Source of the DNA: Thuidium tamariscinum
Lineage: Eukaryota; Streptophyta; Bryopsida; Hypnales; Thuidiaceae
DNA length: 64,000 nucleotides
Assembly: GCA_947034885.2 (NCBI GenBank)
Contig: OX344753.2
Location: 4,712,001 to 4,776,000 of the forward strand
Reading direction: 5' to 3'
Shown here in pieces: positions 9,305 through 56,019 of the stretch (position 1 is its first letter; each line of letters begins with the position of its first letter). A program made the translations under genes and the position numbers. Under the pieces are notes generated by a model. The model saw only the letters and a list, made by a program, of their open reading frames with translations, had not been told where the DNA came from and searched no databases.

Positions 9305-11730
9305 CTAAGTGACAGTAGACTCTGTTACGGAATCCCTATTACTAGAAGAGTCCGAAGTGTCTCTACCCTCAGATGCTGATCCATTTATAAATTGTAAGAC
9401 ATTTAGAGCGTATAAAGATTTATGGTATTTGGGTTTAGATGTACCAAACTCTATAAACATTAATGCTAGTTGTTCTATATAGAATGGAAGATGAAAGGGC
9501 TTTTCTGGGCTCAAAATGAGTCTTTGCCTTTTTTTCACTTCATCCTTTGACATCACTCCATTGTTGTTGCAAACTCAGTAAATGCATTGTCAGATTTACA
9601 AAATTGTACAAGTACCATCAAAGGCAGAAATTTAGAAATGGAGAAACTTACTTACTAGGTTTAAGTCGTCGAACGAATTTGCGAGGCACTATCATCACCG
9701 CATCTTAGTCTTGCAATAACACCACCGTTAGCTCTTGCGTAGTTGGAGCCACCACCACAACAACAGATTTTTTCATTGGTTGAAGCGCATGCTGAAATAT
9801 CCGTTTGTCTTCCTCCAAGGCTACAGTGTGCCGTCCGGTTGCACGACATGCTTTAATTGAAGCACCTGCCATTCATCACGAAATATATCATTTTTGTACA
9901 ATGATTCTCTACATCCAAAAATTCAAATATGTAGACATTAGAGAATTAAAACTCACATGTAGATGTAGTGCAATCTAACACTATATCTCCTTCATCAATA
10001 GTGCCTTCAATGATGAATTGGATGGAGCATGCATCTTTCTCTCGAGCTCCATGTCAGGTCATTTGATCCATCTCGTTCATCAACATTGTATCATCTGTAA
10101 TGTAGTTCATGAGGAGGTTATCACGACGAAGGTTTACATTTGCCTTGAGCATCGTTCGAGAACGCCTGAACTCGAATTTTGATTTCCCTTTGACTCCGCA
10201 ATCCTTCACCATGAGTGTGATGCTAAACTTCAATGTTTGCAAGCATTAAAACAAAATTCATATAAAAACAAGCAACAATACAAGTGACAAATTATAAACG
10301 CTAGGAACATAAAAAATCAATGACCAAATATTATCGTTTGGTCTGGGTGAATTGCCAATATTAAATGCATTTGGTTCATGGCCATCCAATCCATTTTTTT
10401 CTTCATGTTCAGGTACTCTTGACAAAGTCTTGCTATGGTTTCCAATGCATCTTGATCCCAAAAATGAAATATAATAATGCAACCATCGTTCTGCAAATGT
10501 TTGTATGCAAAACCAAAAGCTTGGAAGATCGTGAAGTACTCCTTATCTACATTCTAATAAGGGACGTGCTTTGAACTACCAATATTTGACACCGGCAAAT
10601 TCTCTCGGCAGTATAAGAGCATGAGGTCAAATTTCAACTGTCAATTGACAACTCCATTGTACACACTTACCTTTCCAACCACCATCTGTAAAGATATTTA
10701 TTCAAGTTCTTAAATTTTGATATATATTAGGTTCTTTGAAACACACTTAAATAATTGAAATGAAATCTTATAAAACAATAAAAGACAAATATATTACCTT
10801 TCGTAGAAAATCCATGATCGTGGTGTAAGAGTTTGGTCTTTGGATTCCTTCATTGTTTACTACGTCATCAATAAAGGCATCAAGAAGTAATTCCTCGGAG
10901 GTAATATCATCATTATCTTCAAGGGAAATGATTTGTGTCCCTTGCGTAATGACCTCTTTAGTGAAGTTTGGTAGAACAGGCTTCCTCTTCATTCCTCCTT
11001 GAGATGCAGTTTGCATTTGTGAGCCTTCATCCATTGCTGATGATTGTGAAGCACCACTGTCATCTTCCTTCTTCTTTCTTTTTGCACGTGCCTTTTCCTC
11101 CTTCTCCTTCTCCTTCTCTGCCAACTTTGCCAAATGCTCTACCTCCTTCTTCTCTTTGATTTCCAGAGCAAGTTAGATTTTAGCTGCTTTCCTCATATAA
11201 TTGGTTTCTCTTTTTGCAATGGCCTTTTCTTTTTGCTTGTTAATGAATCCTACAAATTCATCAACGTCGGGGTTGACGATGCCAAGTTCCTCCAATGAGT
11301 TTCGCAGATCAACCTCTAACGGATGCGTATATGAAATCACACAATCAAGATACATCCACCACCACTTAGGTGAGCTGTAGTGTAGGTTCGGAGTTGGTTC
11401 GTCATATACATACAATTTGGAGAGTGGGGGTTCAAAAATTCAAATAAAAAGGGAGGTAGGTCCTCTTTCTAAATTGCCTTTTTTCCTTCCAGCTCGTATT
11501 TGAAGTATCTAACAATACAAAGCATAAATAAAATATTACAAAATTATAGTGGATAAATAAATTTCATATGACTTCATGTAATACAAATCAAAAACCGAAA
11601 ATTTCATATTTTGAAAAAAAATACTTATGAATTTAAATTCAAAGACTCTAAGGGGATATAATAAGATATACTCACTAGAGATCTTGCCATTGAACTCATT
11701 GTGACCGAGTATTTCCATCAATACTGACTC
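9305..11730 (-). pseudogene. Decayed multi-exon SAM methyltransferase-like gene
   Basis: Segments with plausible splice sites read as exons at about 11667-11730, 10798-11508, 10325-10685, 9957-10227, 9656-9865 and 9305-9558 (natural TAG at 9305). In order they give an N-terminal segment with SPKWWWMYLD, a lysine/glutamate-rich helix (about 11060-11170), and a hydrophobic core strand (GCIIIFHFWDQ) typical of a Rossmann methyltransferase. A helical basic part follows, then EGDIVLDCTTST joined across an intron to ASIKACRATGRHTVALEED. That last pair has the form of the AdoMet-binding motif of amino-methyltransferases acting on DNA (G-D-I-V-L-D-x-x-x-x-x-G). In-frame stops (for example in VPY*N, VVN*QL, MT*HGA and LQD*DA) and at least one frame change in the first large exon show it is broken. 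No DPPW/SPPW catalytic box is visible where it would be expected. Whether it was a host gene or cargo of a mobile element cannot be told. Confidence 0.6.
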
Positions 11731-12726
11731 AAAATATATTTTAAAAGCAAAACTACTTAGCTTCTTCTATATACATCCTAATAATTTCTTCAAGAAGTCA
11801 AAAACAGAATTCTACCAATCTAAATGCAAATAGACAACTAATAACGGTATAAAACCCTTGTGAGACCAACAACTGTTAGTTGTTGACCGGTTCCGGGTTT
11901 GAAACTTGTTGGACTTGTTGAATCAGTCTGAGCAGGTGCAACTTGGCACCACTAGTGAAAACATAAAATAAATAGCCATTCGGCCACTTAATTTTCCTGA
12001 GCCAAGTGACAAAATGTACTACACCCAAACCTTGAATCTTTCTACGACCAACCATTTTCCCTCTTGTTTCTAAACTTATTGAATAAAAAATAAATTAATA
12101 ATAAAATAAATATTTATACGATGAAAGTGTTTTCATCACGACAATGGAAGCCTTCAAGTATTTAATTGTAAATCTCAATGGCACTTGTTTTGTTTACTAT
12201 TTACTACATTAGTCATTTTTCGTTTTGCTTAGGGTTCTTTGATTTTCTTTAAGAAAATCATTACTACTTCAAATAAGAAGATCGTAGCGCTTTAGTGCTT
12301 ATGTTGCATGAACTCCCTTTGTCGATAGATTTTTACTAGTGCCTAAGTAGTTTGTAATGAACACATGGTCTTTAATGCTTATGTTATTGTAGCTTAGGAT
12401 TACTTAGAAAACAAAACCCAAGGAATCCCCTAGTGGTGGTTCTTTCGTTTGGGAAAAATCAAATAGTCTATCGTTTTGTATCTAAAGTCACTTTTGATGT
12501 AGGATTATCACTCATTTTCGGAAATAAAAGATTAAAATTAAAAGAATTAGTTTTCTAAAGGTTTTTCATGTCTTAACTTATTCTAATTTCCGTCCAATTC
12601 CCATGGAACTAACCCTTGACTTACTGTCACAGTCTTATACTAGGATTCTAGTGTCAAATAATCATAGGAGTGTCAAATACTTTTGGCTCCTGTTCTATAG
12701 ACTTAATCAAATCCACAAGGTATATT

Positions 12727-12760
<34 letters not shown>

Positions 12761-12770
12761 TGTGCATATA
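11731..12770. other. Intergenic DNA with a TA microsatellite
   Basis: No gene recognised. A (TA)n microsatellite lies at about 12731-12758. The interspersed 11-bp motif of the neighbouring LTR cluster is absent here and starts at 12814, so the left edge of the cluster probably lies between about 12.72 and 12.81 kb. Confidence 0.45.
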
Positions 12771-15056
12771 CACCATTGAGTTCTCTTTAATTACTTCTTC
12801 AATTTAATATTTAGTCAATTGGTCCACTATTCAAAAAGTACTTAATCACAAAAGATTATTACTCTTAAATTATGTATAAGTCAAATATTCATGTCACTTC
12901 TCTTCCTAAAACACACACATTGAGTTAGTTGAATCAAACATAATATAACCATATACATTGGTATGATCAAACTCTTTAGTCAAATGGTCTGGCTATTCTA
13001 ACAAGTAACCAAGTCTAACAATAGCTACACATTGTCAATTTGTCCAACTTCCATACAAGATCACAACAACCATGTATAAAGATTTTCTTATTAGTATTAG
13101 AGAATTGGTTCCCTCTTTTCCCTGCAAACACAACTTAGCACATAATGTCAATTTGATCCTTTTACATAATAATCTCCACTTACCAAACAATTAGACATCC
13201 AGCCATTCTTTAAATAATTAATGAATTACTAAATTCACTTACTCATTCTTATGTTGCTCTGTTAATTCCAACTTTGCAAACAACGACTAATTGACATAGG
13301 AATGACATCCAAAAACTACAATTTATATAGTTAAGGTAATAACAATTAATCTGTCTTTCCTTAATCCTTGCAACATCAATCTTTACTATTAGACATCCTA
13401 CCAGGACTATTAGTCTTAATCACTTTTATCAATCAGTTACTAAGTTTACATTAAACATATCAAAATAACTTCATCAAAATTGCTCTCTGCATTAATTCCT
13501 TCTTTATCAGACTATTGGACTTCATCATTGAAACATCAGATTTCATAAGCATGTTTACATCCAGTTATAATATGACTATTTGACTTTAAAACATAAACCA
13601 AGCACATCACCATTCAACAGTATGTAAACCAAATCGGGTTATGTCCAACCTCTGGTACATCACCTTATTCAGATCACAGACTATTCGCCTTGCATAATTA
13701 ATTTTATAATATGAGTTTTTCAAAGAATAATTTTGTAATATTATCAGAGTTTTGTCTACTGGACTTATCTATTAAATTTCGCACTAGTTAGCTTCTCACC
13801 AACTGACTAATAGACCGCTTAATACAAAATGAAAGAAACTTGCCAATCACTGGCTTAACACCGTTCTTTTAGACTATTCGACTTAACATACCAATCACTG
13901 GTAATTAATAAAATATTTATTTTATAAAAGTTAGAAGTATTCCCTACTTCATCAACAATCTGTCAATTTGTCAAGTTCAACCAAAACAAGAAACAGTTAT
14001 TCATATTTGGATAATAGGAACTTACCATCAATTAGATTTGGGGTCCTACAGCCTTGCAGCTTGGCTTTCTCCAACAACTCCTTCCCTTTCTTCACAGCTC
14101 TTTCTCCAGCTTAGTAGTCTTGCTCCAATCACGTTAAGAAACCGTCTAATTGATTATCACTAATTACCCAATTATAAAGCAAACACACAAGCAACCACTC
14201 CCTGACTTACTCCATTACATCACCAATTTTTATACTCAATTTAATCCGTTTTCGTTTTAAAACCAAGTTCAATTACAGCTCTCATACTCGGCTAATTGAC
14301 TTGGTACAGCACTGAAAATAAAAGCCAATCACTTAACCAATCCCTGGCTACTGACTCAAACACTAATCTTGCCAAACCCTGGCTAACGACCTCGACTATT
14401 AGTCTGCCAATCACTGGCTACTTGCTCTTCATTGGTACCGAACACTCACTGTCCAATCGACCCTAGCATAAATAATCCAAAATTAGATTGCCCAAACCTT
14501 AGCTCTAGAAATACACACAATTGAAAATAGCAACTCTCTGTCTAATTGCCTGCAACCTTACGAAACACAGGGAAACCAGAAAGACTCCAAACCAATCATT
14601 GGCTATTAGACTGTAACTTCAAAAGACTATCAAAAAGAAAGAACAGGAACAATGCCAATCCCTGGCTAATTGTTCAAACAAAGAAAACACAAAGCCAATC
14701 ACTGGCTACACAGAATCACAAAGCTTACACAGGTTAATGGACAAAATTGCATTCGATTACAGATTGCAAAAATTACAGAAGGCCAAAAGGCGAGCAATCC
14801 CTGCAAACGCCGTGAGAGAGAGAGAGAAGAGAAAAGTCGATTTGTCTTTGTATTCTTGGCGTAACAAACTCTCACTAACCGAACTTGACTATTAGCCTAA
14901 CTACTTCTTATCTCCCGTTTGATTAATAGTCCTATTCCCATTATTAAGCCTATTTGACTTAGTTTACTACATAGTTTCTATTTAGAACCGGTCTGAACTA
15001 GTCTATTAGCCCAGAATTTCAAAATGAACAAAATGAAAAACAAAAATGAGTTTACA
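12770..15056 (-). repeat. LTR of element A (3' copy)
   Basis: The right edge is set by the TTTACA|TAGCCCCCTACTT junction at 15056/15057, the same LTR/polypurine-tract junction as in element C (26390/26391). The LTR carries at least eight exact copies of the GWCWATTNGWC motif and about eight forms of GCCAATCACTGGCTA (13842, 13890, 14332-14349, 14374, 14407, 14582, 14653, 14693). A GA-rich patch at 14812-14838 is a pyrimidine patch in element sense, a feature of plant core promoters. The left edge is not resolved. Confidence 0.55.
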
Positions 15057-15074
15057 TAGCCCCCTACTTTAAGA

Positions 15075-15094
15075 GATTGACGCCCCCGTCAATC
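15075..15094 (-). other. Hairpin next to polypurine tract, element A
   Basis: GATTGACG, loop CCCC, CGTCAATC: a perfect 8-bp stem lying directly inside the polypurine tract. Equivalent hairpins stand at 26409-26428 (element C, same stem, loop CCCT) and 22383-22404 (element B, different 9-bp stem, loop TCCT). Confidence 0.7.
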
Positions 15095-15099
15095 AAACC

Positions 15100-18000
15100 T
15101 GGAGCGCTTGTTTCGATGCTCCTCTTCCTTTCTCCTCTGATTCTCCAAAATCTTCAGCATCTTGTCACTTGCTTTCTACACATCGTCATCTCTGACTAGT
15201 AGACTTGGATTATTCGTCCGTTGGTACTCCAACCACTACTTCCAAGCGGTGAACCTTGTGCATGGAAACTCGTTGACAAACGCCAAATGGGGCCTGTAGA
15301 GGAAGTGTGTCATCGCCATGACCTCCAGCAATCGATGCCAACGAGTACTCTGGTACTGAATCTTAATGGAAATATGAAATTCGGGTCGCAAGATGTCAAA
15401 TTGATTAACATTTATCTGCACCTTGTGTCGTCTGCACATCTCTGCAAGAAAGTCACAGAACACTGCAGCTCGAAAGTACACAGGATCTATGTGATGTATG
15501 TGCTGGTGGTGGAAGGCAACATAAGCGTCTACACATCCCCATGGCGAGTCAAATTGTCCTGGTATGATCGGCCGGTTATACTCCACGAAGTCGATGCTGG
15601 CCGATGGATCCCATCTGTATCTCCGTGGACAATCGCAGAAATGGCCATTAGTCAGGACGGCAACTGCAGGGTTGTGTGGACGTCCGCTTCTTCCCAAAAA
15701 GCGTCCGAAAATCGGACGTCCGGACATCCAGACGTACAGACGTTGGTGGACGTAGTAGACATTGGATAAAACACCCGGTAAAATGCTCGGTAAAAAAATT
15801 CCGACGAGTTTTTACTAGCGGACGGCTAGTAGACAGGTAGTTGAATGGCGGACAGCTGGCGGACGGCTGGCAGACAGGTAGTTTAATGGTGGACAGTTGG
15901 CAAATGGCTAGCGGACAGGCGGTTTCATGGCGGACAGTTGGTGAATGGCTGGCGGACAAGCGGTTTCATGGCGGACAGTTTTTGTAGATGCCAAAAAACA
16001 TCTTATTTATCCAATTTGAAGACTTTTTGCAAAAGTTACAGCCGTTCAAAGTTCGCAGCCGGTCAACCCTATTCCGTCCGATATGACAACCCTGACGGAC
16101 GGCCGACGGCCAGGGCGGACGGCTGGCGGACAGGCGGTTTCATGGCGGATGGAATAGAGTTGACCGGCTGCGAACTTCAAACGGCTGTAACTTCTGCAAA
16201 AAGTCTTCAAATCGAGTAAATAAGATGTTTTTTGGCATCTACAGTTTTTGTGGATGCCAAAAAACATCTTATTTACCCGATTTGAAGACTTTTTGCAGAA
16301 GTTACAGCCGTTCGAAGTTCGCAGCCGGTCAACCCTATTCCGTCCGATATGACAACCCTGGCGGACGGTTGGTAGACGGCCGGCGGACAGGGCGGACGAC
16401 AAGTCGGACGCTGGCGGTCAGGGCAGAGGGGCGGTCGGACAGGAGCTTCGACGTCGGCGGTTGGGGCGGACAGCCAACAAACAGGAAGGCCGTCCGCCTT
16501 GGTTTTTACCGGGCGCAGTAAATCATGAAAATGAAATGTCACAGGACGTCCGCGGGGTGCCGGACGCTGGACGCTGGACGTCCGGACGTCCGCACAGCCC
16601 TGGGCAGCTGGTGGTTGATCTTGCCACCTTCTGGAAATCTTCTCGTAGAGTCTGTCGTATGGAATGTCCTCCGAAATGGACATCCCGTAATCTTCTAGCA
16701 TCCACTCCAATCCCTTCCAGCTAATAATTGGCCGTTCTGCGCCAAAGTTTTTGAACATGGCGGGTTAGTTGCCCAAAAACTACTCCTTCAAGATCGATCC
16801 TTGTACGGGAGGATTGATGCTAAGCCATCGGGGTGGTCTGTAAGTGGCTGGAGGAACCGGCAACGTGAAAATTTGTCTATGATTCGGCACCATCTTCTTC
16901 CCCACTGCTGCTCCATCAATAGTTTGGCCGAGTCTCAAATAAGTATTCTGCAAAACAAAGACGTATTGACTATTTGTCAATTCGCCTCATTGTCCCATCA
17001 TCTCCCGCTCCAGCACATTCGTCATGAGTGCACTCACTAGCGGCGCTGCATCATCTCCTACCCTCTTGATTAAATCCCGCATAGTCTCCATCTTTGTCTT
17101 CCACGCTGGTGTTGATTATGGGTACTCCTCCTGCATTCGAGCAATTAGACTGTGATGGTCCTTTAGTGCTATAGGGCGCATAGGTTGTTCTGCCAAGTCC
17201 ATTTGCCTTTGCTGCTTCATCTGCCGCTCCAATCCCATGTAATACAACGCTACTCTGACTCCAATGTCAACTATTGGATAGAAAATGAATGACCAATCGT
17301 CCAACTCCAAATCCCCTTGAGCTAACATCTCGCACAACAAATTGGGTTGGTTCTCGTATTTGCTCGCCAAATCTCCTCAAACTGGTCCTTTGTCAACATG
17401 GCGCCCTTTGTCAATTCGTACATGTCGAGAAACACATCCCTCTGCAACTCATAGGCTCTGAAAAGTGAATAGGAGGGTGGCGATTTGACTTGATGATTCC
17501 ACAAGGCTACCCTCAGACTGTCGACTTGTCCCTGCAATTCCGTAGCCTTTTCTTGAGCTTCGGAATTTGACTCTGCCAAGATTTGTAAATCGGCCTCCAA
17601 TTGTGGGTCTCGAGTCGACTGGTCCAAGGGTACGTGTAACTCCACATCAAAAGACTCCGGTACTTGATACTTCAATTTAGAAAGTTCCTTGGCATACTCC
17701 ATCTGCATCTTGTCAATCTGTTTCTTGTACTCTGTATTCTCCTTGCGCAGGGCCATGTTATTAGACCGCATGTCACTGACTCGGTTCACTATCACCTTGT
17801 TCTCACGCATCAGCTCCACATAATCCAAATTCTTGGAATCATACGCCTCTGCTTTGAATTTGTAACCCTCCACTCTTGTCTCCCATTGCTTCGCTCGGTC
17901 CTCTAGCGCAGCTTTCTCCTTAGTCCATTTGTCTTGCTCTCGTTGCGCGTTCTGCTCCAAGTCCAATATTCTCGCGTCCTTCTCCTTGAGGAGTTTCGTC

Positions 18001-19202
18001 AATTTGCCTTTCACCACCGAGTTCTTCTGGAGCCTGGTCTGGAGCGCAGTCTCTCTTGCCACTGCTCCCTGGAACTCCTGTCGACTTGTCAATTCCTTAC
18101 TTTGCAGTTGCTTAAACTCCTTCACCAACGTATGATAGAGTTGGTGAACTTCGCGAATCTCCTCCGTGGATTCTTCGACAATCACAGGTGGAGTGAAAAT
18201 TGGTGACTCTGGTCTTTGCGGCCGCGTCTCCGATTCTTGTGGTGCTGCTTGCTTCCGTTTCTTCTGGGCTGGGGGCTCTTGTGCAGCCGGTGGTTGGCTA
18301 GTTGTCTTTGCTTTCTCCACTAGTGTTGTAGTCTTCTGTCGAGTTGCTTGAGTGGTTGAAGGCGTAATTGGCAGCTTCACGGCTAATGGGGTCACCGTCA
18401 AATTGACCTTGGGATATGGTTTTCCCATGAGGGTCATATAAGTTGCCCCCGAGAGTGATAAGGGGTTGCAGGTCTTCTTACTCGCCAGCTCCATCTTCAT
18501 ACAATCGAAGACAATTTGTCCCCAATTGTATTGTATCCCTTGCCATGTAGTCAATCCCACCTTCAACACCTGATCAGTGGCAAAATTGGTCTTCGGGGCC
18601 AGAAACATCCTCTGATTGATGAATATGAGCTAGGATGACATCGGGGGAATAGCCTTAGTGAGATCCCATCCTTGTTTCTTCTTTGTCGCTTCCTTCTCTC
18701 CAAAAATATCCACATTGTCCTTTGTCGTAAGGGTTCCCTACTCTGTCAACTCGACCCCACCCATCGGCAACTAGAGTAGCTTAGCTACCATAGTGGGATC
18801 AAATTGGACATGGGATCCATTGATCTCAATCTCATCTGAAGCTCCATACTCCGAAGTTTGGACGAATTGTCTCACTCGATCCACATCCGGCTTCTCCCAA
18901 GTGCGATGGAGATAATTCCATAGGCCTGCATTTTGAAGATTCGTCCGATTTTGCTCGATGGTGTATTTCAGCATGTGATTGGATAGCTCATAAAGAGGAA
19001 TCGCAATCACTGTCAAATTTCTCTTCTCCATACTGCTTCTAGTTCTTCCCGTCAAGTGGTCTTCAATCTCTGTATTAAGGTATCTCTCGGCTATTAGACT
19101 CAATCTCTCAAAACATTTGAGGAGCAATAAGGGAATTATAATGGTCAACCTGCCTAATCCCATACTAATCTTTTCTATACTTTTAGAGTAAAAGGAATTC
19201 AT
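15100..19202 (-). pseudogene. Worn internal coding region of element A
   Basis: Blocks of plausible protein lie on the minus strand at 18771-19202, 17322-18608, 17116-17370, about 16610-16758 and 15100-15660. The longest (428 codons, 17322-18608) has a proline-, lysine- and glutamine-rich linker followed by a long coiled coil (roughly residues 160-380, rich in E, K, Q and L heptads). No protease, reverse transcriptase, RNase H or integrase motif is present, so the product is best seen as a structural or accessory protein of a non-autonomous LTR element. The region is broken several times and split by the hAT-like insertion. The family of the protein is unknown to me. Confidence 0.5.
15667..16602. 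mobile_element. hAT-like non-autonomous DNA transposon, 936 bp
   Basis: The ends are inverted repeats: CAGGGTTGTGTGGACGTCC at 15667-15685, and the complement of CAGGGCTGTGCGGACGTCC at 16584-16602 (two differences). The flanks GGCAACTG (15659-15666) and GGCAGCTG (16603-16610) are an 8-bp target duplication with one change. CAGGG termini with an 8-bp duplication are the hallmark of hAT elements. Inside there are many GGCGGACGG and GGCGGACAG subterminal repeats and three copies of a ~100-bp block (about 15985-16095, inverted at 16145-16242, direct again at 16250-16360), so the middle is a nested foldback. It is GC-rich against its AT-rich host and encodes no transposase. It lies inside the coding region of retroelement A and is therefore younger than A. 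Confidence 0.85.
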
Positions 19203-22200
19203 TCTTTAATCCTCTAGATAATTTGACCTCTCTTAACTGGACTAGAGCTATTTCTCAGCTTTGTATTATAACCTCACTCTAACATCTCTCTGGCAATTGG
19301 TCATAGGCTTCATCATGCTCCACAGACTGATGACCATTTGACTGATAAGCAAAAGGACCAAGGAAAGGATTTGACCAAACTAAATTCAGCAAAGATCACA
19401 AATTAACACTTCTAGGGATGTTAACTCATCCCTTATCTTCTTATCTTGTCGCTTTTTGAGACTGATAAAAGTGCTTCAAAGCTCATTATCTCACAATTCC
19501 TTTTCACTCGGCAATTAGACAGAAAATCTCTCATGCTTATCATGTTCTTTCCTTATATTTTCCTCACGGTTAGATTAGGCTATTAGACTAGCTTCTATAT
19601 ACTTCACCACTCTTATACATATTAGCTCATTGGGCTTTTAAAATTCTGGGAATTACAATGAACTTCTTTTGTGAATTGCATGCTATTTGGAACTCGCTTT
19701 CTTTTATCATGTTCTCTCTTATTCTCACATTAAAAGGAAAACAGACTATTAGTTTTCTATTAAGATACACTCATGATCTTATCATGTTCTCTCTTTTATA
19801 TTTTCCTTACAAAGAAAGAATTAAATACCAAAATTGTTTAAGCAGAATCACTCATCCTTTTTATCATGTTCTCACAGCTTCCGAGATCACTCTTAACCAA
19901 CAAATTTAAGTCAATTTGTCCTTGCCTTTCTCTCATCAATTAAGATAACTTACTTCTTAACTTCAGGATTCTCTCTTAATAATTTTTATCATGTTCTCTC
20001 AACTCACGAGATTCTTTGTAAAAAAAACAAATTAAACTTCATTTCTTTCTTGACTATTTTCAATCATTATTTCCAAGTAATCACAATCCTGATTTAGTCT
20101 AATTGTCTGTTCTTTCTTCAACCAGTCCTAACATCACTCGGCAAATAGACAGGAATTCAAAAATCAGTCGAAGAAAGTCACAAGAAACTCACCACTCGGG
20201 AGGACTGTCAATTTGTTTGTTCTTCTTTTTCTTCCCACTACTGATGCAGTAATTGCTTCAACTCTGTGGAAATGTATGTCAATTGGTCAGTAATTCTCTT
20301 CACTCATAATCATGCTTCCAAAGTAGTTTCATCCATCTTCTCCCATCTAATCTCTTCTCCCTTTCTACTGTTTTCAAACTTTAACCTTTATAAAAAATTT
20401 CAAAAGGGAAATAGAATAAGGAACTCTTAGACTACTCGACCAGTCTCTCAAGATTTATCATGTTCTCTTTTAAACAAAGTCCTAACTGATTAAACGGAGA
20501 AAATTGTTTTTACTTCTTCACAAGATAATTTTTTTCTATTCCTTTAGGTGATCTATTCACTACTTTATACTTGGCACCTCTCTCGGCAATTAGACCAAAC
20601 TCAGACTTTTAGGCATTACAACTTGTTGCTCATTGTATTTAGAAGACTATTAGACTTATAGTCCTTTAAGAAAAGAAAAATTCACTCTTAGTTGTCTGAA
20701 ATCTCTCGACTATTGAGTTTATCATGTTCTCTCTTAATTAACACTTAAGAACAAGCTTTATTTTACTCAATTAATTCCTGCATTCACCCACGTTAGTAAT
20801 ACAAACTAATCTGTATTTTTTTCAATTCTTAAACTTACCTCGCAGTCAATTGGTCTGTCTCCTTATCGAAGCAGTTCTACAGCTATCCTCTCTGCACAGT
20901 CTATTTGTCTGTACATTCCTCCAACAACAAACGAGGTCAGTCTAATTCAAGTTAATCAGGCAAGCGATTTCAGTTTCTATTACATAATCCAACATTCTTA
21001 CTCTTCTCTCAGCTACTCAGTCTATTAGATTAAACTTAATCAGTCACTCCGATAAGTTAAGAAAAACAACAATCACACAGTCTATTTGACCGTTAAACCC
21101 TAATTATCAATTAGACTGAACATTAAGGATATCATTATGTAAGTAATTTTGTTCTCACCCTCCTCTTAGGCATTTTATATTAAGGACTTTGAAGCTCTAT
21201 GTCTATTAGACTCAGACTTCACACGATAATTTGACTTACAGTTTCTTACTTATTTGAAGAACTTACCCAATCTTCACATTGTATTCCTACATTCCAAAAC
21301 TTAGTGCAAAATAGCTTCACAAGGTTCAGTTTTCCAACAACTCAACAACTTACGATACTTGTTCATTTTATTGCTCTCCTTTCTCGGTCAATTTGTCTAT
21401 TCGATTCTTACACACTTGATCCCTAAGCGATCTGTTTCCAAACCTTACTGAGGACAATCGCTCGACAATTAGACTGCAACTTCGTTCAAACTGATGAACT
21501 TCGTCACCAATTTGACCAAACATACAACTTTAAACTCCTGACTTTGCAATATCGGAACTGTCTATTTGTCTTAACCCTAATTGACCTTCTATCTCAGCTT
21601 CGATCTATGAGGAAACACAGAAAACAGCCAAACAACTTAGTGTAGCTCATTTTTTCAATACTCATGCACTCATAATCAGCAAAAGTTCAAATTTTGCACT
21701 CAACCACATCGGCATTACTTACCGATTCCAAAGTCGACTTGTCTATGCGCCAATCGCTCGACACACACTTCGATTGTGTTCCGCCCCTCACGATCGCACC
21801 TCCGCTTCGCTTCCGCTTTTGTTCTGCGATTATCTGCGTCAATTTGTCTTCAATTTCCTCGCTTTTGATCTCCACGGGCGCCTCTCCTCCGAGATTTTAA
21901 GCATGCGCAGAAGTTTGTCAATTCGTCCAGCAAAACTACACACAATGCAAAAGCAGATGAGCGAGAGAGAAGAGGGAAATTGTGAGAGACAAATTGCCAA
22001 GAAGCCACTTGACTGCCTGCGCCGCCAGTTAGTGGGTGGTAATTTGTGAGTGGTGGGTGGATTTGCCAATGACTATTCGTCTTTATTACGCCACGTTCTG
22101 GGTTACTTATGCCCTGTGCATAATGACTACTGGTCCTTTCGGTAAGATACATCGTATTAACTACGGTGTTCTTGTCAATTTGTACTTAATTAATATTCTC

Positions 22201-22367
22201 ATAATTATTTGAGAGTGTCAAAATAATATTTTCCATTATTATTAATTTTAATTTTAAATCTAATTTATATTTCATTTTTCAAGGTTTTAAAATTTTAAAA
22301 TTTAAAATTAAGTAATTAATTTATAAAGGACACTATTTATAAAATCACCATTTATAAAGAATACTGC
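19203..22367 (-). repeat. LTR-like block between elements A and B
   Basis: No coding sequence. The stretch is marked by frequent short near-palindromes of the form GWCWATTNGWC (exact copies at 20278, 20845, 20899, 21080, 21201, 21387, 21464, 21560, 21838, 21917 and 22071) and by repeats of the phrase TTATCATGTTCTC (19540-20740). A polypurine tract abuts its right edge (plus strand TGCCCCCTACTTT, 22368-22380), as expected for the 3' LTR of element B. It may equally be the 5' LTR of element A. No primer-binding site was found at its left edge. Confidence 0.4.
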
Positions 22368-25300
22368 CCCCTACTTTAAAAGCATAACTTGTCCTCAAGT
22401 TATGTAAGGTTTGAGGCGGTATCCATTATACCTAGTCGAATGGACAATGCTAGAAAAATCTTGTAAGCCTACTGATCCATTAGGGTAGGATTTTAAAATT
22501 TTATAGGGACCAAACCATCGCATTTTGAATTTCCCTGGGAACTTTTGAAATCGGCTATCAAATAAAAGGACCAAATCATTTTCTTTTAATTCTTTGGGTT
22601 TTAACTTACTATCATAGTAACTTTTTCGTCTATTTTGTATGGCTACCATATTAAAATAGGCTTCCCTCCGTTTTTCATCTAACTTTTCCAACATAGCATA
22701 TCTTTCTTTTAAGGATTCTTCATCCTTGAGTCTATGTTCAAGGGCAATGCGTAAAGACTGTACTTCTAATTCTATTGGCAAAATTGCCTCTTGGCCATAG
22801 ACCAATTGAAATGGCGTACTTTGGTAGTTACTTTATAAGTAGTGTGATAGGCCCATAAGGCGTCTAAAACTCTTGCATCCCAATTAGTATTAGACCCTTG
22901 GACAGTTTTAGTGATAATTTTGCATAAAATGCCATTAGTCTTTTCCGTTTGACCATTAGCCCTTGGATGATAGGGACTAGTTTTCCTATGTTTAATAAAA
23001 TATTTGTCAGTCAATTTTTCGATAGTATCATTTATAAAATGAGTCCCTCTGTCACTTACAAGTTCTCTAGGACAACTAAAACGAGTAATTATATTCTCAT
23101 ATATAAATTTAGCAACGATTTTAGCATCATCTGTTTTAGTAGCGGTAGCCTCTGCCCATTTAGTCACATATTCAGTTGCTACTAAAATATACCGTTTTTG
23201 TCCTATTTTTCTAGGAGGGTTTATAGGTCCTACAAAATCAATGCCCCATTTTTCAAATGGTATTTGGGCCAAAATAGGAGTAAGAGGCATAGATGTTGTA
23301 GGGGTCGGTTTTCCAACTCTTTGGCAGGGATCACATTTTCTAGCATATTTGACAGCATCTAAAAACATTGTAGGCCACCAATAGCCAGACTGCAATGCTT
23401 TTTGTGCTGTGACTAATCCCGCAAAATGCCCACCACAAATATCACTATGACAACCTTCTAAAATTAGAGGCACTTCGCTAGGATTTATACATCTTCTCAA
23501 AATTCCGTCTTTTCCCTTTTTATATAAGACTTCGGAAATTAAGGTATAAGGACTTGCTTTATATACTAACTTTTTCTTTTGTTTTTCAGTATATTCTAAT
23601 GGAAATTGACCAGTAGACAAATAGTGTATGACGTCAGCATATTCGAGTGGAATTATATCTACTTGGAATAAATCTGCGTCCGGGAAATTGTCATCTATAG
23701 GATCTTTTCCTAATTCTTGGATAACCCTTGATAAATGGTCAGCATTAGCATGACTCTTTCCCAGTCTTACCTGTATGGTAAAATTAAACTCTTGTAGTAA
23801 TAGTACCCATCTAGCAATTCGTCCACTTAATTGGGGTTTGTTTATCATATATTTCAATGCATCATGATCTATATGAAAAACAAATTTATAACCCAATAGA
23901 TAATGTCTAAATTTTTGAACTGAATATATCATTCCTAAAGCTTCTCGCTCAGTGACAGTATAATTCTTTTCCGCAACAGCTAATTGGCAGCTAGCAAAAT
24001 AAATAGGTCTGTCATGGCCTTTCTCATCTTTCTGACTTAATACACTACCTATGGCTACGTTAGATGCATCAACGTAGACTTCAAAGTCTTTATCCCAATT
24101 GGGTGGAATTAAAATTGGTACATTAGTCAATTTATATTTTAAGGTATTAAAGGCTTTAGTGCATGTTTCTGTCCATATTGGAGCAACATCACTCTTTTTG
24201 GTTAACTCGGTTAAGGGAATGGCTATATTTACATACTTATAAATATATCGACGATAGTAGCCTACATGTCCTAAAAAGGCTCGAACAGCTGTAATGTTGT
24301 CTGGTTGGGGTAGGTCTACAATTATTGCTACTTTATCAGGATCGGTGGCAATTCCTTGGTTTGAGACAATATGTCCCACCAATTTACCATATGGAATAGC
24401 AAATTGGGACTTGGCTGCATTTACTAAAATACCAAATTGCTCACATTGTTCAAAACATTTTTCTAGGCAACCCGCATGGTTTGCTTTTGAGCTAAACACA
24501 CAAAAGTCATCTAGAAAAATTTCCATAAATTTTCTTAAGTATTGCTGAAAAGCTATAGTCATTAATCTTTGGAAAGTGGCTGGGGCATTACATAATCCAA
24601 AGGGCATAACATTATGGGCAAAAATTCCCCAATCTGTTGTAAAGGCTGTTAACAATCTATAAGCTTTTCCTATTTGGATTTGATTATTCCCTGAAAACCC
24701 ATCTAAAAAGGAATAACATTCATAGCCTACAACACTATCCAATAGTGTATCCGTAAAAGGTAATGGAAAATGATCCTTTTTGGTTACACTATTGAGTTTT
24801 CGGTAATCTTGACAAATCCTCAATTTACCATTTTTCTTAGGTACAATTACTATGGGTGAAACCCATTCACTATAAGGAACTGGGAATATAAATCCACACT
24901 CTAACAATTTATCAATCTCTTCCTTAACCATTAAGGAGTATTTTGGATTCATCCTATATTGTCTTTGCCTTATAGGTTTGGCATCTAATTCAAGATCTAT
25001 TTTATGTTCACATACGTCAGGTGGAACTCCTTTTAAGTCAGTATAACTCCATGCAAAGACACTTTTATGTCTTTTAAAGAAATTATGCCAATATTTAAAC
25101 TTTGTATGCGACATTTTCGAATAGACCCTTATAACTTTAGGATTCTCTTTTGTTCCTAAATTCATTTCTTGTAAAGGGGTTCTTAAGGATTCTTTTTGAA
25201 TTGGGGTAGGATCACCATAAGCTAATAAATCTTCTATTTCTTGTGTAGTAGAAGCATAGTCTAAGTCAGATTTAGAAGATTCATTGGTAGAAGATTTTTC

Positions 25301-26239
25301 TATGGTAACATTCATTACTTCGGAATTTTCCCAAGCTAATATTGCATCATCCGAATCCTCTACATGACTTAATGGAATAAAATATTCACCTAATCCTATA
25401 CATCTATAAGGAAGTTCTTTACTTATTTTTCGGGTTTGTTCACTCTCACTACTTTCATCATCGGTTTCATAAGGATTTTCAGAAGTAATGTTTGAATCTT
25501 CTTCTTGAGTTTCTCCCCGATAAATTGTAGGATAAAGGAGTAATTTAATTTTATTCCTTCCTTTCCCAATAGTTAACGTTCCTTTACCCCAATCATCCTT
25601 AGCTTTAGCTACGTATAACCATGGTCTTCCTAGTAAAATAGGATAGGAGGAAATGGCTTCCTTTAATTTAAAAACAATATAATCTACTTTATAGTCTATT
25701 CCTCCGATAGTTGTTACAATTTGGGATAACATTCCTAAGGGTTTTACTCGACTTTGGTCCGCCATCCTAAGGACGATGGGTGTAGTGGTCATAGTAGTTA
25801 ACCCTAATTCCTCCATAGTTTCAAAATTCATAAGGTTAACACTAGATCCACTATCAATTTGGACACCTTGGATTAAGGTTCCGTCAATCATTACTTCAAC
25901 GGTAGGTGCCCCAGGATCGATAGTAATTTCATGTAATTCGATTGATTTAACCCTTTTACGTACTAAAGAAGTACTTAAATCACTTCGACATTTAGGCGAA
26001 ATTGCCAAAAGTTGTTTCATAGTAATGTTAGGTTGAATTTGATCCAAATTGTCTAATAAATTACAGGGTTCCATCCCTATCGCTAATTTCATACTACGGG
26101 GTACCTTCCGTTTTGGTATATTTGACTCAGGGTCTTTAAATTTTACCCATTTTGCGGGAATTTTGTAAAAATCAGGTAATGGGGGTGACAAATTTATTGG
26201 AGTAGTTTTTAAAGGAGTATTGGGTTGTGGAGGTAATGA
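22368..26239 (-). mobile_element. Ty3/gypsy LTR retrotransposon pol region (element B)
   Basis: A Ty3/gypsy pol polyprotein read on the minus strand, domain order protease, reverse transcriptase, RNase H, integrase. Seen: aspartic protease VQIDSGSSVNLM; reverse transcriptase with LRICQDYRKLN, MPFGLCNAPATFQ and FLDDF in place of the usual YxDD; RNase H FEVYVDASNVAIG; integrase zinc finger (H-H, CDPCQRVG) and core GIDFVGPI with VSDRGTHF; and a short integrase tail at the left without a chromodomain. Integrase after RNase H defines Ty3/gypsy. The lack of a chromodomain and the protease/RT style suggest the non-chromovirus (Athila/Tat-like) branch. Gag, primer-binding site and 5' LTR are missing: at 26239/26240 the sequence changes abruptly to a partial LTR of element C. 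Apart from that loss the pol part looks largely whole. Confidence 0.85.
22383..22404 (-). other. Hairpin next to polypurine tract, element B
   Basis: CATAACTTG, loop TCCT, CAAGTTATG: a perfect 9-bp stem that includes the stop codon of the pol frame (TGA, 22395-22397) and lies just before the polypurine tract. In element sense it contains CTTGAGGACAAG, a motif I recall as common at this place in plant Ty3/gypsy elements. Confidence 0.65.
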
Positions 26240-26390
26240 CCACTATTCATATCTTTTGATATTAGACCTTTCAGATCTATCTAACAATTAGTCTATTAAC
26301 CTTTACAAACGTACAAACTATTCAACAAATTGCGTACATTTACACTACCCAAGGCAAATAGTCAAAAATGAAAAATTTAGAATGACTACA
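26240..26390 (-). repeat. Partial 3' LTR of element C
   Basis: Identical by eye to 29649-29799. The right edge is the GACTACA|TAGCCCCCTACTT junction with the polypurine tract. The left edge at 26239/26240 is a sharp break into pol-coding DNA of element B. Confidence 0.85.
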
Positions 26391-26408
26391 TAGCCCCCTA
26401 CTTAGGCT

Positions 26409-26428
26409 GATTGACGCCCTCGTCAATC
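26409..26428 (-). other. Hairpin next to polypurine tract, element C
   Basis: GATTGACG, loop CCCT, CGTCAATC; same stem as in element A, loop changed by one base. Confidence 0.65.
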
Positions 26429-27649
26429 TTTCTTGGATTGGTTAGTCTGCTACAAATTGTGTTGTGCGTCTTTGGCAACATCCTTTTTGCATAATCCTTC
26501 TTTATATCTTCAAATATTTAAATAAGTTGCACATTGTAGTATTGAACATTTAGCAAACTTTTGAATTTCATCCTTGAAATGTTATATTGATTTATGTTGA
26601 TAGTCTTACCATGTCTATTAGACTTGCATAGTCAAAAGAATTCTTCTTGTAAACTTGATGATATGGCACACCTTCCATCATGGATTATTTATAATTATTT
26701 ACTTTGACAAATTGTTGCAACTATTTTAGTTGTAGCCACTTCTATAATCCAATTGATTGGAACCTCTTGTAATTTTATTTTTCTTATAATTTGTTGTATG
26801 ACTTATTGTAGCCATTTGTACATTAATGTAGTGATTACCATTAGCTCTCACTTTGTTGCCTTTTAAAAAAATTGGAATTATTGATCAAAATCTCATTTTT
26901 TAAAAGAATAATTTTTTTAACTAGACAAAATAGGCTTTGATAATTAGACTCCAATTTCATTTCACACAATTTGACTTATTGAAATGTTTATTTATTATTT
27001 TCAATCTAATTGTCATGTTGTACTTTATCAAATATTTTAACTATTCACTTGAAATATTATTTAGCACATGAAAAGACTAATAGATTTATATTTCAACTCT
27101 CAATCTGATTTTACTATTCATTCTCACTCACACTCATTTTCCCTTATTTATTTGACATAATTCCTTACTTCCAATCAAATTGTCTTATACATCTCATGGA
27201 AAGTACCTTCTAATTCTTTCAAAAACCTTGCATCTCTCAATGACAATTTGCTTCCTTAGCTTCAACCCGAATATCTTATCAATTTGACTTATTCTCTTCA
27301 TCATGTAGATTTTGCTACAATGTTATTTTATACAAATTGGTATTACATTTCTAGGAATTATAATTTTTTTAATATATAATCTCCTTTCTCTCGGCAAAAA
27401 ATTAGATTTATTTATTCCATTACTTTTCTCAATCTATATAGTCCTCTAACTTTCTTCTTACTCACATAATTTATTATTCTTATTTATTTTATTTAAATTA
27501 ATTTGAAGTTTTATTATATATATATCTATAAATGTCTTTAATTTTTTATTTGATTATTAATTTTTATCTCATTTCTAATCAATTTTTAATAGCTGAAATG
27601 TAGTGTAAAATTGTAAATAATTATTTATCCTAATTACACTCCAATAAAA
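26429..27649 (-). other. Non-coding internal part of element C
   Basis: AT-rich, no coding frame. Phrases such as CTATTAGACTTGC, CAAATTGTCTTA and TTTGACTTATT relate it loosely to the interspersed motif of the neighbouring LTRs. Confidence 0.4.
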
Positions 27650-29173
27650 TCAATGTTGAAGTCTACCAGGGTCCGATATTCTTTGTTGAATTTTATATCC
27701 TTTCACCAATATTTTTATGAAACATATTTTATGTTCTATAAGAAACAATAGTATTATGTAAATTTTGGTGTACTCTTGTTTTATTAAATATGACATAATA
27801 GTCAAGTTGAAATTTTGTTTAATAATGAAACCATTTGTGTTATCTTCTTTCATAGTTATCATAGTCCCAATTTTACTATTTCCACTTTGAGGTCCACATT
27901 CAATATTTAAATAAGTGTAAGATTTTTTATTTTTTGATGAAGGTAGGTATATGAGAATTTTATTATATGTCAAAATCAAAACTTCATGATATGGTATTAT
28001 ATTATTTTTCTTCACAATTTTGGCTTCTTCATTAATATATTGATTTTCTTCAATTAATGCAACTTTTTGGTCTTTTAGAGTGTTTACATTTCTTTCAATT
28101 TTGATGACTTTTTGATTTGCAAACAATTCTATGAAGGTTAAACATTCTTTTAATGGTAATTCATTATTAAGTTTAATATTCCCACCTTTAGCTTTGGCAT
28201 AAGTTACATTGAGAAGTGTCCCAGATTGTTCTTTCAAGGATAAATTTTCTTGTACCAAAAGTGCATTTTCCTTCACATAATTAGCTTGTTGATCATCAAG
28301 CGAATTCAATTTGTTTTTGAGTTTCTTTAATTCATCTTCAAGGCAATTAGTGTATATAAATGCCTCATCCCTCTCTCTCAATGCAAATAACAACTTACTT
28401 TTCAAAGGCAATATCTCAACATTCATATAGTTGTTTAATTTTTTGGAAAGAAGCCTATTGTCTTCTTTTAGTGATGCAACTTCTAACATGAAATTTTCCT
28501 TTTTTATATTAAAAGTCTCTCTTTCTTGGATGAATGCATCAATTTGTTCTTCAAATATAGTTTGTTCTTTGTGTTGCACTTGCATTTTTGCTTCAAGCAT
28601 CCGAATCTTTTGTTTTTGCATTGTAGCATAGGCAACAATTTTCTCCTTCTCTCTTATATTAGTGGTTATGTCCTTTGACACATTAGACAAATCATTCTTC
28701 ATTGCGTTGATCTCAAATTTGTGCTCTTTATCCTTTATAGATGTAATGCTTTTGAAGCATGCTACCTCATGAAAAAGACTATCACGTTCTTGCACAATAA
28801 CCTTGATTAAAGCATGTAATGACTCATTTTGTTTAGACAATTTCGCTTGTTGATTATTATATGCATCAACCTTGACTCCAAACTCATGAATTTGTTGTAT
28901 TAAGAGTTTTTTTTCATTATTAGCATCATCAAGGCTAGTCATCAAATACTTTATATGATCTTGAGCATTGCATAAATTTTCATATTCTTTCCTTCCACAT
29001 TCAAAATGATTATGACATACTTCTTCAAGCTCTTTAATTTCTAAGTCTTTCTCGTGAAGTTGATTCAACAAGTTGTCATTAGACTGATGAAGGTAGTAAA
29101 TTTGACTTCCATAATTATTACTTGCATTAAAAATTTGTTCTTTCTTATGGTATTTAGATTCATAATTTTCCAT
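27650..29173 (-). CDS. Coiled-coil protein frame of LTR element C
   Basis: A 507-codon open frame starting MENYESKYHKKEQ shortly after the primer-binding site. It is rich in K, E, N, Q and L, with long heptad runs predicted by eye over most of residues 20-390. There is no zinc knuckle, protease or reverse transcriptase motif. The last ~100 residues change character (isoleucine- and tyrosine-rich) and may read into non-coding DNA. Position after the primer-binding site suggests a gag-like or accessory role; the family is unknown. It resembles the coiled-coil frame of element A in design but not obviously in sequence. Confidence 0.5.
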   Translation of the reverse strand: MENYESKYHKKEQIFNASNNYGSQIYYLHQSNDNLLNQLHEKDLEIKELEEVCHNHFECGRKEYENLCNAQDHIKYLMTSLDDANNEKKLLIQQIHEFGVKVDAYNNQQAKLSKQNESLHALIKVIVQERDSLFHEVACFKSITSIKDKEHKFEINAMKNDLSNVSKDITTNIREKEKIVAYATMQKQKIRMLEAKMQVQHKEQTIFEEQIDAFIQERETFNIKKENFMLEVASLKEDNRLLSKKLNNYMNVEILPLKSKLLFALRERDEAFIYTNCLEDELKKLKNKLNSLDDQQANYVKENALLVQENLSLKEQSGTLLNVTYAKAKGGNIKLNNELPLKECLTFIELFANQKVIKIERNVNTLKDQKVALIEENQYINEEAKIVKKNNIIPYHEVLILTYNKILIYLPSSKNKKSYTYLNIECGPQSGNSKIGTMITMKEDNTNGFIIKQNFNLTIMSYLIKQEYTKIYIILLFLIEHKICFIKILVKGYKIQQRISDPGRLQH

Positions 29174-29259
29174 TTGTATATCCTATCAAAACTAAAAATA
29201 TTCAATTTTACATGACAATAATTTTAATCAAACATCTCAAACCTATCCATCTTAAAATT

Positions 29260-29276
29260 CCCCGGCCGTAGCACCA
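29260..29276 (-). other. Primer-binding site of element C
   Basis: In element sense TGGTGCTACGGCCGGGG begins two bases after the end of the 5' LTR. It is complementary to a tRNA 3' end reading CCCCGGCCGTAGCACCA including the CCA tail. The tRNA species was not determined. Confidence 0.7.
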
Positions 29277-29278
29277 AA

Positions 29279-29799
29279 TGTCATGGCAAAAATTAACAAC
29301 GCCATTGAAATTGTTATTTTTATCATAGTATAGTAGTAAAGGTTCGTTCGCAGGGAATTTTGTATTGGATAAGGAAAGAGAATTAATAAAATATTATTTA
29401 CAAAGCCAATCACTGGCCAATTGACAAATTAACAAAGTCTAAAGCCAATCACTGGCTAATAAAAAATATATAAAATCACAATCAAGCATTATAAAGAAAA
29501 CTACAAAGAGAAAAATGAAGACAACTTGATTTCTAAAGATATTGGAGAAAAAAATGAGAAAGAGAGATAGATAGAAATGACAAATTGTTTTTGCTATATC
29601 TAATCGGTTAGAGAACTATTCACAATGAACAACCTCTAAGTTGATTGGCCACTATTCATATCTTTTGATATTAGACCTTTCAGATCTATCTAACAATTAG
29701 TCTATTAACCTTTACAAACGTACAAACTATTCAACAAATTGCGTACATTTACACTACCCAAGGCAAATAGTCAAAAATGAAAAATTTAGAATGACTACA
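29279..29799 (-). repeat. 5' LTR of element C, 521 bp
   Basis: In element sense it starts TGTAGTCATTC and ends GCCATGACA, the usual TG...CA termini. It contains two GCCAATCACTGGC copies (about 29404 and 29441) and a GA-rich patch (29545-29575), a pyrimidine patch in element sense. The sequence right of it starts GTTATTG; the matching target duplication cannot be tested because the other LTR is cut. Confidence 0.75.
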
Positions 29800-55226: not shown

Positions 55227-56019
55227 TCAACTCAAGACTGAATTGATAGGTCTTATCAAAATGAAGGCTTTTCATAGAATTCCGGAAATCTCAGATGTAG
55301 CCTTGGATATGCTGGTGTCAGTTTTCCCTTTCGTTGTGCAGTTTGAATTTTGGATTTTGAGGTTGGAGCCTAGGGCCAACCTTTCAGAAATTCTGGGGCG
55401 CCCTTGCGGGCACCGCAGGGGGGTTGGAAATAGTTTTCAACCAGCAATTGACGCGTCTCGGTATAACCTCACTAACTGCGTCATTGCCCCAAGCGCAAAG
55501 ATATCATGCTCAGCGTCTCTTGTGCTTTATATAACCCTAAAACGCCCACTCCCCGGACAATGAATATGGGTTAAATCCCCCCTTTCCACCATCGAACCCC
55601 TGCCCTTAGGGCTCGTGCTGCCATAGCCATATACACCTGCGATTAGTCTTGCGTTCTCCAAACAACAGCAAGTCTACGAGCATCGAATCCTCTGTCCTGA
55701 TGAAATATCCCTTACAAGTACACCGATTGTCGATATCACACTGTGCCGATACAGGCTTTTTCCGGGCTTTATTTGTAGGTGTACCTTATTGAGGGAAGCT
55801 CATGAGGGGTATCGTGCCACATTGGATGAGCATTAGAGGAGAGTGTGAAATTAGTCTTGAGTTGGATATGGTCTGTGCAGCTGAGGAGCTACTGTGTTCG
55901 GAATAGGTATAGATGTTGTGATTGTGGTGGTGAGCTTGTTTTGTTTTACACTTGGAACTTAATCGGCTTTTGTGATTGAGAGAGCAGTGCGATTGATGAT
56001 TGCGCTTCTGTAATCAGTC
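55227..56019 (+). promoter_or_regulatory. Upstream region and leader of the RUS3 gene
   Basis: Base composition rises to a clearly higher G+C than the preceding 50 kb. No TATA box is obvious. An open frame at 55189-55563 matches nothing recognised and is probably chance. The transcription start is not determined. Confidence 0.4.

Follow-up and report, generated by a model that had tools for sequence, protein, structure and literature searches.

How do plant long terminal repeat (LTR) retrotransposons persist under sequence-specific silencing? This open question is raised in a particular form by a 64,000-nucleotide stretch of the Thuidium tamariscinum genome (referred to here as the window; positions 4712001-4776000 of contig C5 in a 363-Mb assembly of 19 contigs), in which a Ty3-type element carries dozens of copies of an 11-bp near-palindrome. 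We report with high confidence that these words form a real array of protein-type sites that is under selection and differs between the families of one clade of LTR retrotransposons. They are very likely selected protein-binding sites; that a protein binds them, and which protein does so, we infer from sequence. A candidate is the product of a sense-strand open reading frame (ORF) located between pol and the 3′ LTR, a region in which many additional ORFs are found without a settled role.

The 11-bp word

The initial annotation had described the word GWCWATTNGWC as single, non-tandem copies and offered a binding site array as one explanation. Every site that it named, 20 on the forward strand and one in reverse, was an exact match. 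A shuffle count agreed with the claimed excess: 32 exact matches are present across the window, 29 within 12814-22081 and 3 outside, versus a dinucleotide-shuffle expectation of 0.97 per 64 kb and a maximum of 5 among 100 shuffles. The matches within 12814-22081 include eight that had been overlooked, at 13805 (-), 15548 (-), 18397 (-), 18510, 18861 (-), 19910, 20097 (-) and 20645. The copies are indeed interspersed: in the LTR and the spacer, none falls within an array reported by Tandem Repeats Finder. When the spacer length of GWC-Nk-GWC was varied over 12601-22200, a lone peak was seen at k=5 (110 on both strands, versus 10-26 at the other values of k=0-15).

Mismatch forms were counted in five segments, namely the window LTR, the spacer, the internal stretch, and two clusters elsewhere in the genome, L045 and L046. 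The form GWCWAWTWGWC occurred 36 times exactly (0.11 expected), 70 times with one mismatch (3.8 expected), 70 times with two (41 expected) and 269 times with three (249 expected, near chance), so that the excess falls from >300-fold for exact copies to 1.7-fold at two and 1.1-fold at three mismatches. Folded onto one half, the surplus one-mismatch forms carried G to A at position 1 (21 vs 0.5), a change to G at position 2 (17 vs 0.09), or C or G at position 4 (17 vs 0.14). Since changes at positions 1, 2 and 4 and their mirrors are tolerated, we refined the word to GWCNAWTNGWC, in which position 4 and its mirror are freed; this form, termed a strict site, occurs 55 times in the five segments. 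The word as first given is thus real, but the refined form describes the sites better.

The G and C adjacent to the core were informative, and in the LTR no information was found beyond the 11 bp; at spacer sites, the positions just outside the 11 bp carry ≤0.4 bit. The outer bases read GTC...GTC (equivalent to GAC...GAC on the other strand) in 105 of 154 strict sites, with A (54) and T (51) equally often at the centre. This bias fits a dimer that reads a symmetric core and favours the outer bases in one arrangement.

Chance or base composition as the origin of the sites was rejected on the basis of the shuffle counts, the k=5 peak and the mismatch cut-off. The unusual feature is the clustering of the word in particular elements, not its genome-wide abundance: GWCNAWTNGWC was counted 11,279 times in the genome versus 11,057 times for the G/C-swapped palindrome CWGNAWTNCWG. 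Because this control shows no excess, no genome-wide enrichment is claimed, and an apparent fivefold one over the reversed pattern (8082 vs 1568) was dropped, the reversed word being a poor control. Between 30 and 64 kb of the window the word occurs 3 times versus 0.8 expected (largest shuffle 5).

The element that carries the sites

The sites belong to one Ty3-type LTR retrotransposon on the minus strand, whose parts are as follows (window coordinates).

12388-15056, minus strand: 3′ LTR of the Ty3-type element, TGTAGC...TTTACA, 2669 bp, with 13 strict and 25 loose sites
12388-12720, minus strand: R-U5-like (repeat and unique 5′) end of the LTR, nearly site-free, with one loose site at 12458
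12721-12758, unstranded: (TA)n stretch that separates R-U5 from the array, from repeat finding
12781-15056, unstranded: site array of U3 (unique 3′), 24 loose sites with a mean spacing of 95 bp
15057-15070, minus strand: putative polypurine tract, AAAGTAGGGGGCTA as read on the minus strand
15239-15666, minus strand: conserved Cys/His-rich C-terminal part of the 3′ ORF, from the alignment with relatives
15667-16602, unstranded: nested hAT-like non-autonomous element with CAGGGYTGTG ends and an 8-bp duplication, GGCARCTG, with one mismatch
17322-19030, minus strand: N-terminal region and coiled coil of the 3′ ORF, including a 435-aa open stretch at 17322-18629, with stops elsewhere in the frame
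19030-22360, unstranded: internal spacer separating pol from the 3′ ORF, the second site array, with 15 strict and 27 loose sites
22772-26242, minus strand: pol (protease-like, reverse transcriptase (RT), RNase H and integrase), with 0 strict sites

Read upstream from the LTR in the sense of the element, the order is thus polypurine tract (a label that we assume for 15057-15070), 3′ ORF, spacer and pol, and the Pfam matches in 22772-26242 follow the Ty3 order RVT_1, RT_RNaseH, Integrase_H2C2 and rve. The sites had initially been assigned to an LTR cluster. This holds for 12388-15056, which is an LTR; the interval 19030-22360 is instead an interior part of that element, and coding sequence also contains some of the sites. 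A second LTR at 19-22 kb was excluded by collinear internal sequence in two other copies.

Homology among the genomic copies stops sharply at ∼12388 and ∼15056, which gives the TG...CA boundaries of the LTR. The R-U5 end is 87-98% identical in 39 other genomic matches (40 of 99 candidates scored, self included) and diverges about threefold less among copies than U3 (0.040 vs 0.115 in non-motif U3). The (TA)n stretch is a possible TATA region. When 31 loci were parsed, both LTR ends were found in 21, of which 19 were distinct. Twelve of these 19 copies are solo LTRs with perfect 5-bp duplications, three continue into the element interior and four gave no match; each copy carries 8-16 strict and 20-26 loose sites. 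The element may belong to the Tat/Athila (OTA) lineage, as suggested only by the type of its primer-binding site (PBS) and its layout.

Two other interspersed words were observed in the element. At 13850-14720, in the U3 of the same LTR, CCAATCMCTGG and near forms recur, and CCA-N5-TGG occurs 12 times versus 2.4. At 19500-20740, in the spacer, a third word, TTATCATGTTCTC, was found; the palindrome AWCATGWT occurs 7 times there versus 0.6 expected, and also 7 times versus 0.2 in the spacer of a young element on contig C10.

Conservation and spacing of the sites

The LTR family of the window (22 aligned copies, 25 loose sites) revealed strong constraint on the core: positions 3, 5, 7 and 9 diverge by 0.028, 0.010, 0.004 and 0.030 versus 0.121 in the flanks, that is, 4-30 times less. 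Because the sites had been chosen in the window, diversity was recomputed among the other copies, yielding a nucleotide diversity (pi) of 0.051, 0.023, 0.008 and 0.062 at the core positions versus a U3 mean of 0.124. A control of 300 column-permuted motifs, restricted to permutations with at least three sites (mean 3.8 and maximum 11 sites, versus 24 for the motif), averaged 0.114 at the four fixed columns; the minimum, obtained with few sites, was 0.008. The L046 family (core 0.008, 0, 0 and 0.025 vs 0.087, four other copies) and the spacer (core 0.019, 0.019, 0 and 0 vs 0.074, two other copies, 53 cells per position) agree. Most of the parsed copies are solo LTRs, and the constraint must therefore presumably predate insertion and have acted in active lineages.

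The loose sites are also spaced more evenly than expected in three of the five arrays tested. In the window U3 the spacing had a coefficient of variation (CV) of 0.38 versus ∼0.84 for random placement, and 0 of 2000 placements were as even; the values were 0.49 for L053 (0.003 of placements as even) and 0.57 for L046 (0.013). In the two spacers the evenness was marginal (CV 0.67; 0.073 and 0.076 of 2000 placements as even). The initially proposed option of a binding site array is therefore well supported: by the steep mismatch cut-off, by information that ends with the 11 bp (almost so at the spacer sites), by core conservation, by the over-even spacing in three of five arrays, and by arms without hairpin-type pairing.

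A young element and arrays of other families

The element on contig C10 has two LTRs that are 100% identical over 2402 bp, each with 24 strict and 29 loose sites, and a TGGCGCC stretch, which we take to be the PBS, adjoins its 5′ LTR. The count of internal sites covered 7 kb of the interior next to the 3′ LTR, up to the 13 kb at 20677885-20691260, and gave 42 more strict sites. At the R-U5 end, C10 and the window are 80% identical over 443 bp; in U3, their alignment is confined to four scraps of 54-195 bp at 69-78%. The C10 U3 thus barely aligns yet keeps its sites, and the sites are therefore maintained in number, not in position.

The clusters L045 and L046 were found through the pattern itself and had no blastn match to 11500-30500 of the window. 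A more sensitive alignment revealed a 33-bp match between L045 and the window R-U5, and the U3 end of L045 is ∼70% identical to 26246-26392 and 29626-29796 of the window.

The word differs between element families

With the 958-aa ORF of the L063 element as the query, the 3′ ORF family was found at 59 places in the genome (48 of 169 candidates scored), and 1.6-2 kb was analyzed downstream of each more distant member. In L065, whose 3′ ORF is 37% identical in this search, the same core occurs in a GG/CC-flanked form (8 vs 0.05) alongside 4 strict sites. In L067 and L069 (3′ ORFs 28 and 30% identical), [AT]CCNAWTNGG[AT] was found 8 and 9 times versus ∼0.1; these two are near-identical and are therefore counted as one family. 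This word was found 0 times in ten GWC-type and L065 segments. The hexamer CWATWG occurred 22 times versus 1.6 in L070 and 12 times versus 2.1 in L066. GWCNAWTNGWC itself was found 0 times in each of the L066, L067, L069 and L070 segments, all of which lie directly downstream of a 3′ ORF relative. L068 (3′ ORF 49%) is GWC-like but weak, with 2 strict sites per 1500 bp.

WCCNAWTNGGW and CWATWG had been picked after inspection of the sequences, and a scan of 2560 degenerate palindromes, which did not include L069, served as a check without a chosen word. In 11 of 13 element segments the top rank went to CNAWTNG or its variants (W flanks, W for N, free centre), and in L070 it went to CWATWG; in two control segments of the window, AT-rich patterns came out on top.

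The 3′ ORF protein and sites within its coding sequence

The 3′ ORF lies on the sense strand between pol and the 3′ LTR and is the only accessory ORF in the element parts examined. Where its frame is unbroken, it encodes 922-969 residues arranged as an N-terminal domain, a long coiled coil and a conserved Cys/His-rich C-terminal domain. The Cys and His columns of the latter are invariant in all six aligned rows (window, C10, L063, L065, L066 and L070, with the L067 family left out). Over this domain the window and C10 are 80% identical, and both are 56-60% identical to L063. Identities of these three amount to 50-61% with the L065 ORF and 44-48% with the L066 ORF, and those of the L070 ORF with the others to 29-36%. 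In the window the ORF is interrupted by the nested element, which is missing from the copies on contigs C3 and C2. Hydropathy analysis of three pieces of the protein gave best 19-residue values of 1.36-1.65, borderline to low for the transmembrane segments expected of an env-like ORF of plant retrotransposons. A bZIP-zipper match had an E-value of 0.003, below the cut-off. A search of solved structures with piece P0001 returned nothing at E-values up to 0.01; the matches of piece P0003 (E-values 0.13 and 1.6) were taken as chance.

Strict sites occur within this coding sequence more often than in synonymous-codon shuffles: 8 versus 1.08 in a 632-aa stretch of C10, 4 versus 0.76 in the 958-aa ORF of L063 and 3 versus 0.40 in the 435-aa stretch of the window. 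The window pol contains 0 versus 0.12 expected, and the 1-kb integrase end of L063 contains 1 versus 0.03, at position 970 of 1017. The core CNAWTNG likewise exceeded the synonymous shuffles in the three 3′ ORFs (22 vs 7.5, 18 vs 7.8 and 10 vs 5.1), the observed count being reached by 0, 1 and 8 of 1000 shuffles.

An element-encoded binder as a model

We propose that, in a clade of large Ty3-type LTR retrotransposons, a sequence-specific protein, probably acting as a dimer, covers the promoter region in U3 together with the 3′ third of the element, and that the words would be retained by selection since binding helps the element to propagate. The binder would most likely be encoded by the sense-strand 3′ ORF, with its coiled coil providing for dimerisation; joint diversification of ORF and sites would then have led to the different words of related families. 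Binding could result in counter-silencing or self-activation, modelled on the VANC proteins of VANDAL transposons. Counter-silencing in preference to plain activation is, by this analogy, a tentative suggestion that seems less likely than not.

Selected words in U3, spacer and ORF, words specific to families and an accessory ORF that diverges along with them are as expected of an element-encoded binder. Observed are the sites, the conservation and family specificity they show, and their occurrence alongside the ORF family; binding itself, the identity of the binder and the effect of binding belong to the model. We judge an element-encoded, co-diversifying binder to be the best single explanation, with about an even chance of being right, and the narrower proposition that the binder is an element-encoded protein appears evenly balanced as well. 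In the fullest version, each element of the clade would carry ∼90 sites for a sequence-specific binder that the clade itself encodes; binder and sites would have diverged together into a separate protein-word pair for every family, giving a retrotransposon counterpart of VANC/VANDAL counter-silencing with an independent origin. This version seems to us slightly less probable than its converse. If the model is true, ORFs of this kind would gain a role, their proteins recognising the word of their family on the elements that encode them. The system would then be a second example of an element protein that diversifies together with its target, and natural protein-word pairs would be available for studying DNA recognition and action on chromatin.

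Several observations weigh against this model. Some concern the protein: no Pfam model reaches the cut-off in it, the weak matches being mostly to coiled coils, and structure models of two of its pieces were poor, with predicted local distance difference test (pLDDT) scores of 48.9 and 36.0. DUF1985 (PF09331), which VANC proteins carry together with DUF287, was not found in the genome, a result that is uninformative given that the control genomes were silent too. The six-row ORF tree has one well-supported branch, of three, and 'co-diversification' therefore rests on the identities and on few families: the GWC type (window, C10, L063/L046), one with the WCC word and two that carry CWATWG, weakly in the case of L066. 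Others concern the words. In the 22 LTR copies, the outer positions 1, 10 and 11 diverge by 0.130, 0.213 and 0.134, not below the flanks. The GG/CC-flanked form of L065 also occurs 2-7 times in GWC-type segments, CWATWG is also elevated in the GWC-type spacer of L063 (12 vs 3.0), and it ranks only fifth in L066, behind AT-rich patterns. CNAWTNG ranks first in pol as well (23 vs 8.7 in the palindrome scan); this excess is mostly due to the protein and its codon use, the synonymous shuffles giving 17.8, with 58 of 1000 reaching 23. Finally, no ORF has been assigned to the L045 family, and with 12 of the 19 parsed LTR copies being solo, linkage to the ORF is not visible copy by copy.

Alternative explanations

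The main rival explanation is that host transcription factors bind the sites as exploited enhancers, different families recruiting different paralogues of one factor family. Plant LTRs do recruit host factors, the U3 array lies directly upstream of the (TA)n stretch, and the Pfam search recognised no DNA-binding domain in the 3′ ORF. The sites, however, reach across the spacer and into the 3′ ORF coding sequence, which is unusual for promoter elements; the word varies among related families, with a similar core in most; and away from the elements it stays at background, both genome-wide (11,279 vs 11,057) and in 30-64 kb of the window (3 vs 0.8). We regard this explanation as doubtful, though a serious competitor.

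An array of insulator or boundary-protein sites with a role in chromatin architecture, like the Su(Hw) sites of Drosophila gypsy, appears improbable. It would account for dense single sites that are over-even in the window U3, L053 and L046 and marginally so in two spacers, and for the placement of arrays at both element ends by the LTRs. A constitutive host insulator protein would not be expected to yield family-specific words, however, and the gypsy insulator is one block in the 5′ untranslated region (5′-UTR), unlike arrays over U3, spacer and ORF.

It is very improbable that the sites descend from an ancestral tandem repeat, were spread as a tiny mobile palindrome or arose by chance from base composition. 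Similar words are indeed numerous in a single AT-rich stretch, forms with two mismatches show a mild excess (70 vs 41), and the spacer holds a second interspersed word, AWCATGWT (7 vs 0.2-0.6). Against this stand the steep mismatch fall-off, the near absence of information beyond the 11 bp, and counts far above the shuffles. The 'tiny mobile palindrome' considered initially finds no support, gaps being rarer inside sites than outside (0.0015 vs 0.0129 in the 22 LTR copies); nor does a single ancestral tandem repeat, in view of the mismatch fall-off, the unrelated flanks, and the recurrence of the word in U3s that hardly align. Formation of RNA or DNA hairpins or cruciforms, suggested by the near-palindromic consensus, deserves practically no weight and in its tested form is refuted by the lack of arm pairing, positions 2/10 being complementary in 49 of 154 strict sites versus 74.8 under independence and positions 4/8 in 62 versus 61.9 expected.

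Comparison with known systems

The closest parallel to an element-encoded binder is VANC21, which binds dense YAGTATTAY arrays in the Arabidopsis transposon VANDAL21; related VANDAL families carry different words together with different variants of the accessory protein (PMC5735166). Both systems share dense arrays of short words in non-coding element parts, rare elsewhere at such density, and words that are specific to families. They differ in that VANDAL is a Mutator-like element (MULE), whereas RT, integrase and LTRs of the Ty3 type are present here; in that the VANDAL motifs often spread via tandem repeats, whereas interspersed 11-bp near-palindromes are seen here, also in LTRs and inside the accessory ORF; and in that the accessory protein here is without a Pfam match above the cut-off. 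Binding is proven for VANC21; here we infer it.

In plant Ty3 elements of the Tat/Retand type, a long region that includes an additional ORF separates pol from the 3′ LTR. The antisense ORF product of Retand is said probably to bind DNA, and tandem-repeat arrays are present in this region in about half of the elements (PMC11963269, PMC7264820). No site arrays comparable to ours were found in the consulted parts of these two papers. The additional ORF in a long region between pol and the 3′ LTR is common to both, whereas the ORF described here is in sense orientation and without a Pfam match, and its dispersed 11-bp sites also fill U3.

The Drosophila gypsy insulator consists of 12 Su(Hw) sites of ∼12 bp in one 5′-UTR block, bound by a host protein. 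It is likewise an interspersed array of protein sites inside a Ty3 element; the difference lies in the 24 sites per LTR and 42 internal sites in the part of C10 examined, and in the family-specific words. Plant CACTA and hAT elements carry subterminal arrays of transposase sites (TnpA of En/Spm, Ac). There, too, numerous short sites lie near the two ends in either orientation, and an element protein binds them; those are DNA transposons, however, and a retrotransposon has no end-cutting step that needs such sites.

In bacteria, the M.SsoII operator, AGGACAAATTGTCCT, contains an exact GACAAATTGTC and is occupied by two protein molecules per DNA (PMC3978073). Such a word can thus serve as a two-subunit site; we regard the match as a coincidence of sequence and claim no relation. 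Among the papers listed for forms of the site, the others appeared unrelated. No arrays of this kind in plant LTRs were found in the part of the literature searched, which does not show their absence from print.

Other features of the window

Inside the putatively hAT-like nested element at 15667-16602 are inverted repeats of 104 bp as well as tandem repeats of 41 bp in which GGCGGAC is abundant. A second element piece was observed at 26237-29799, with 154-bp repeats that are 99% identical and U3 ends ∼70% identical to that of L045. The 5-bp sequence GTTAT adjoins 12388 on the left and 29799 on the right; the two pieces could therefore stem from a single insertion whose LTRs differ, or represent a recombinant. 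At 55362-55502 on the minus strand, a match to U4 spliceosomal RNA was found with a score of 107 bits.

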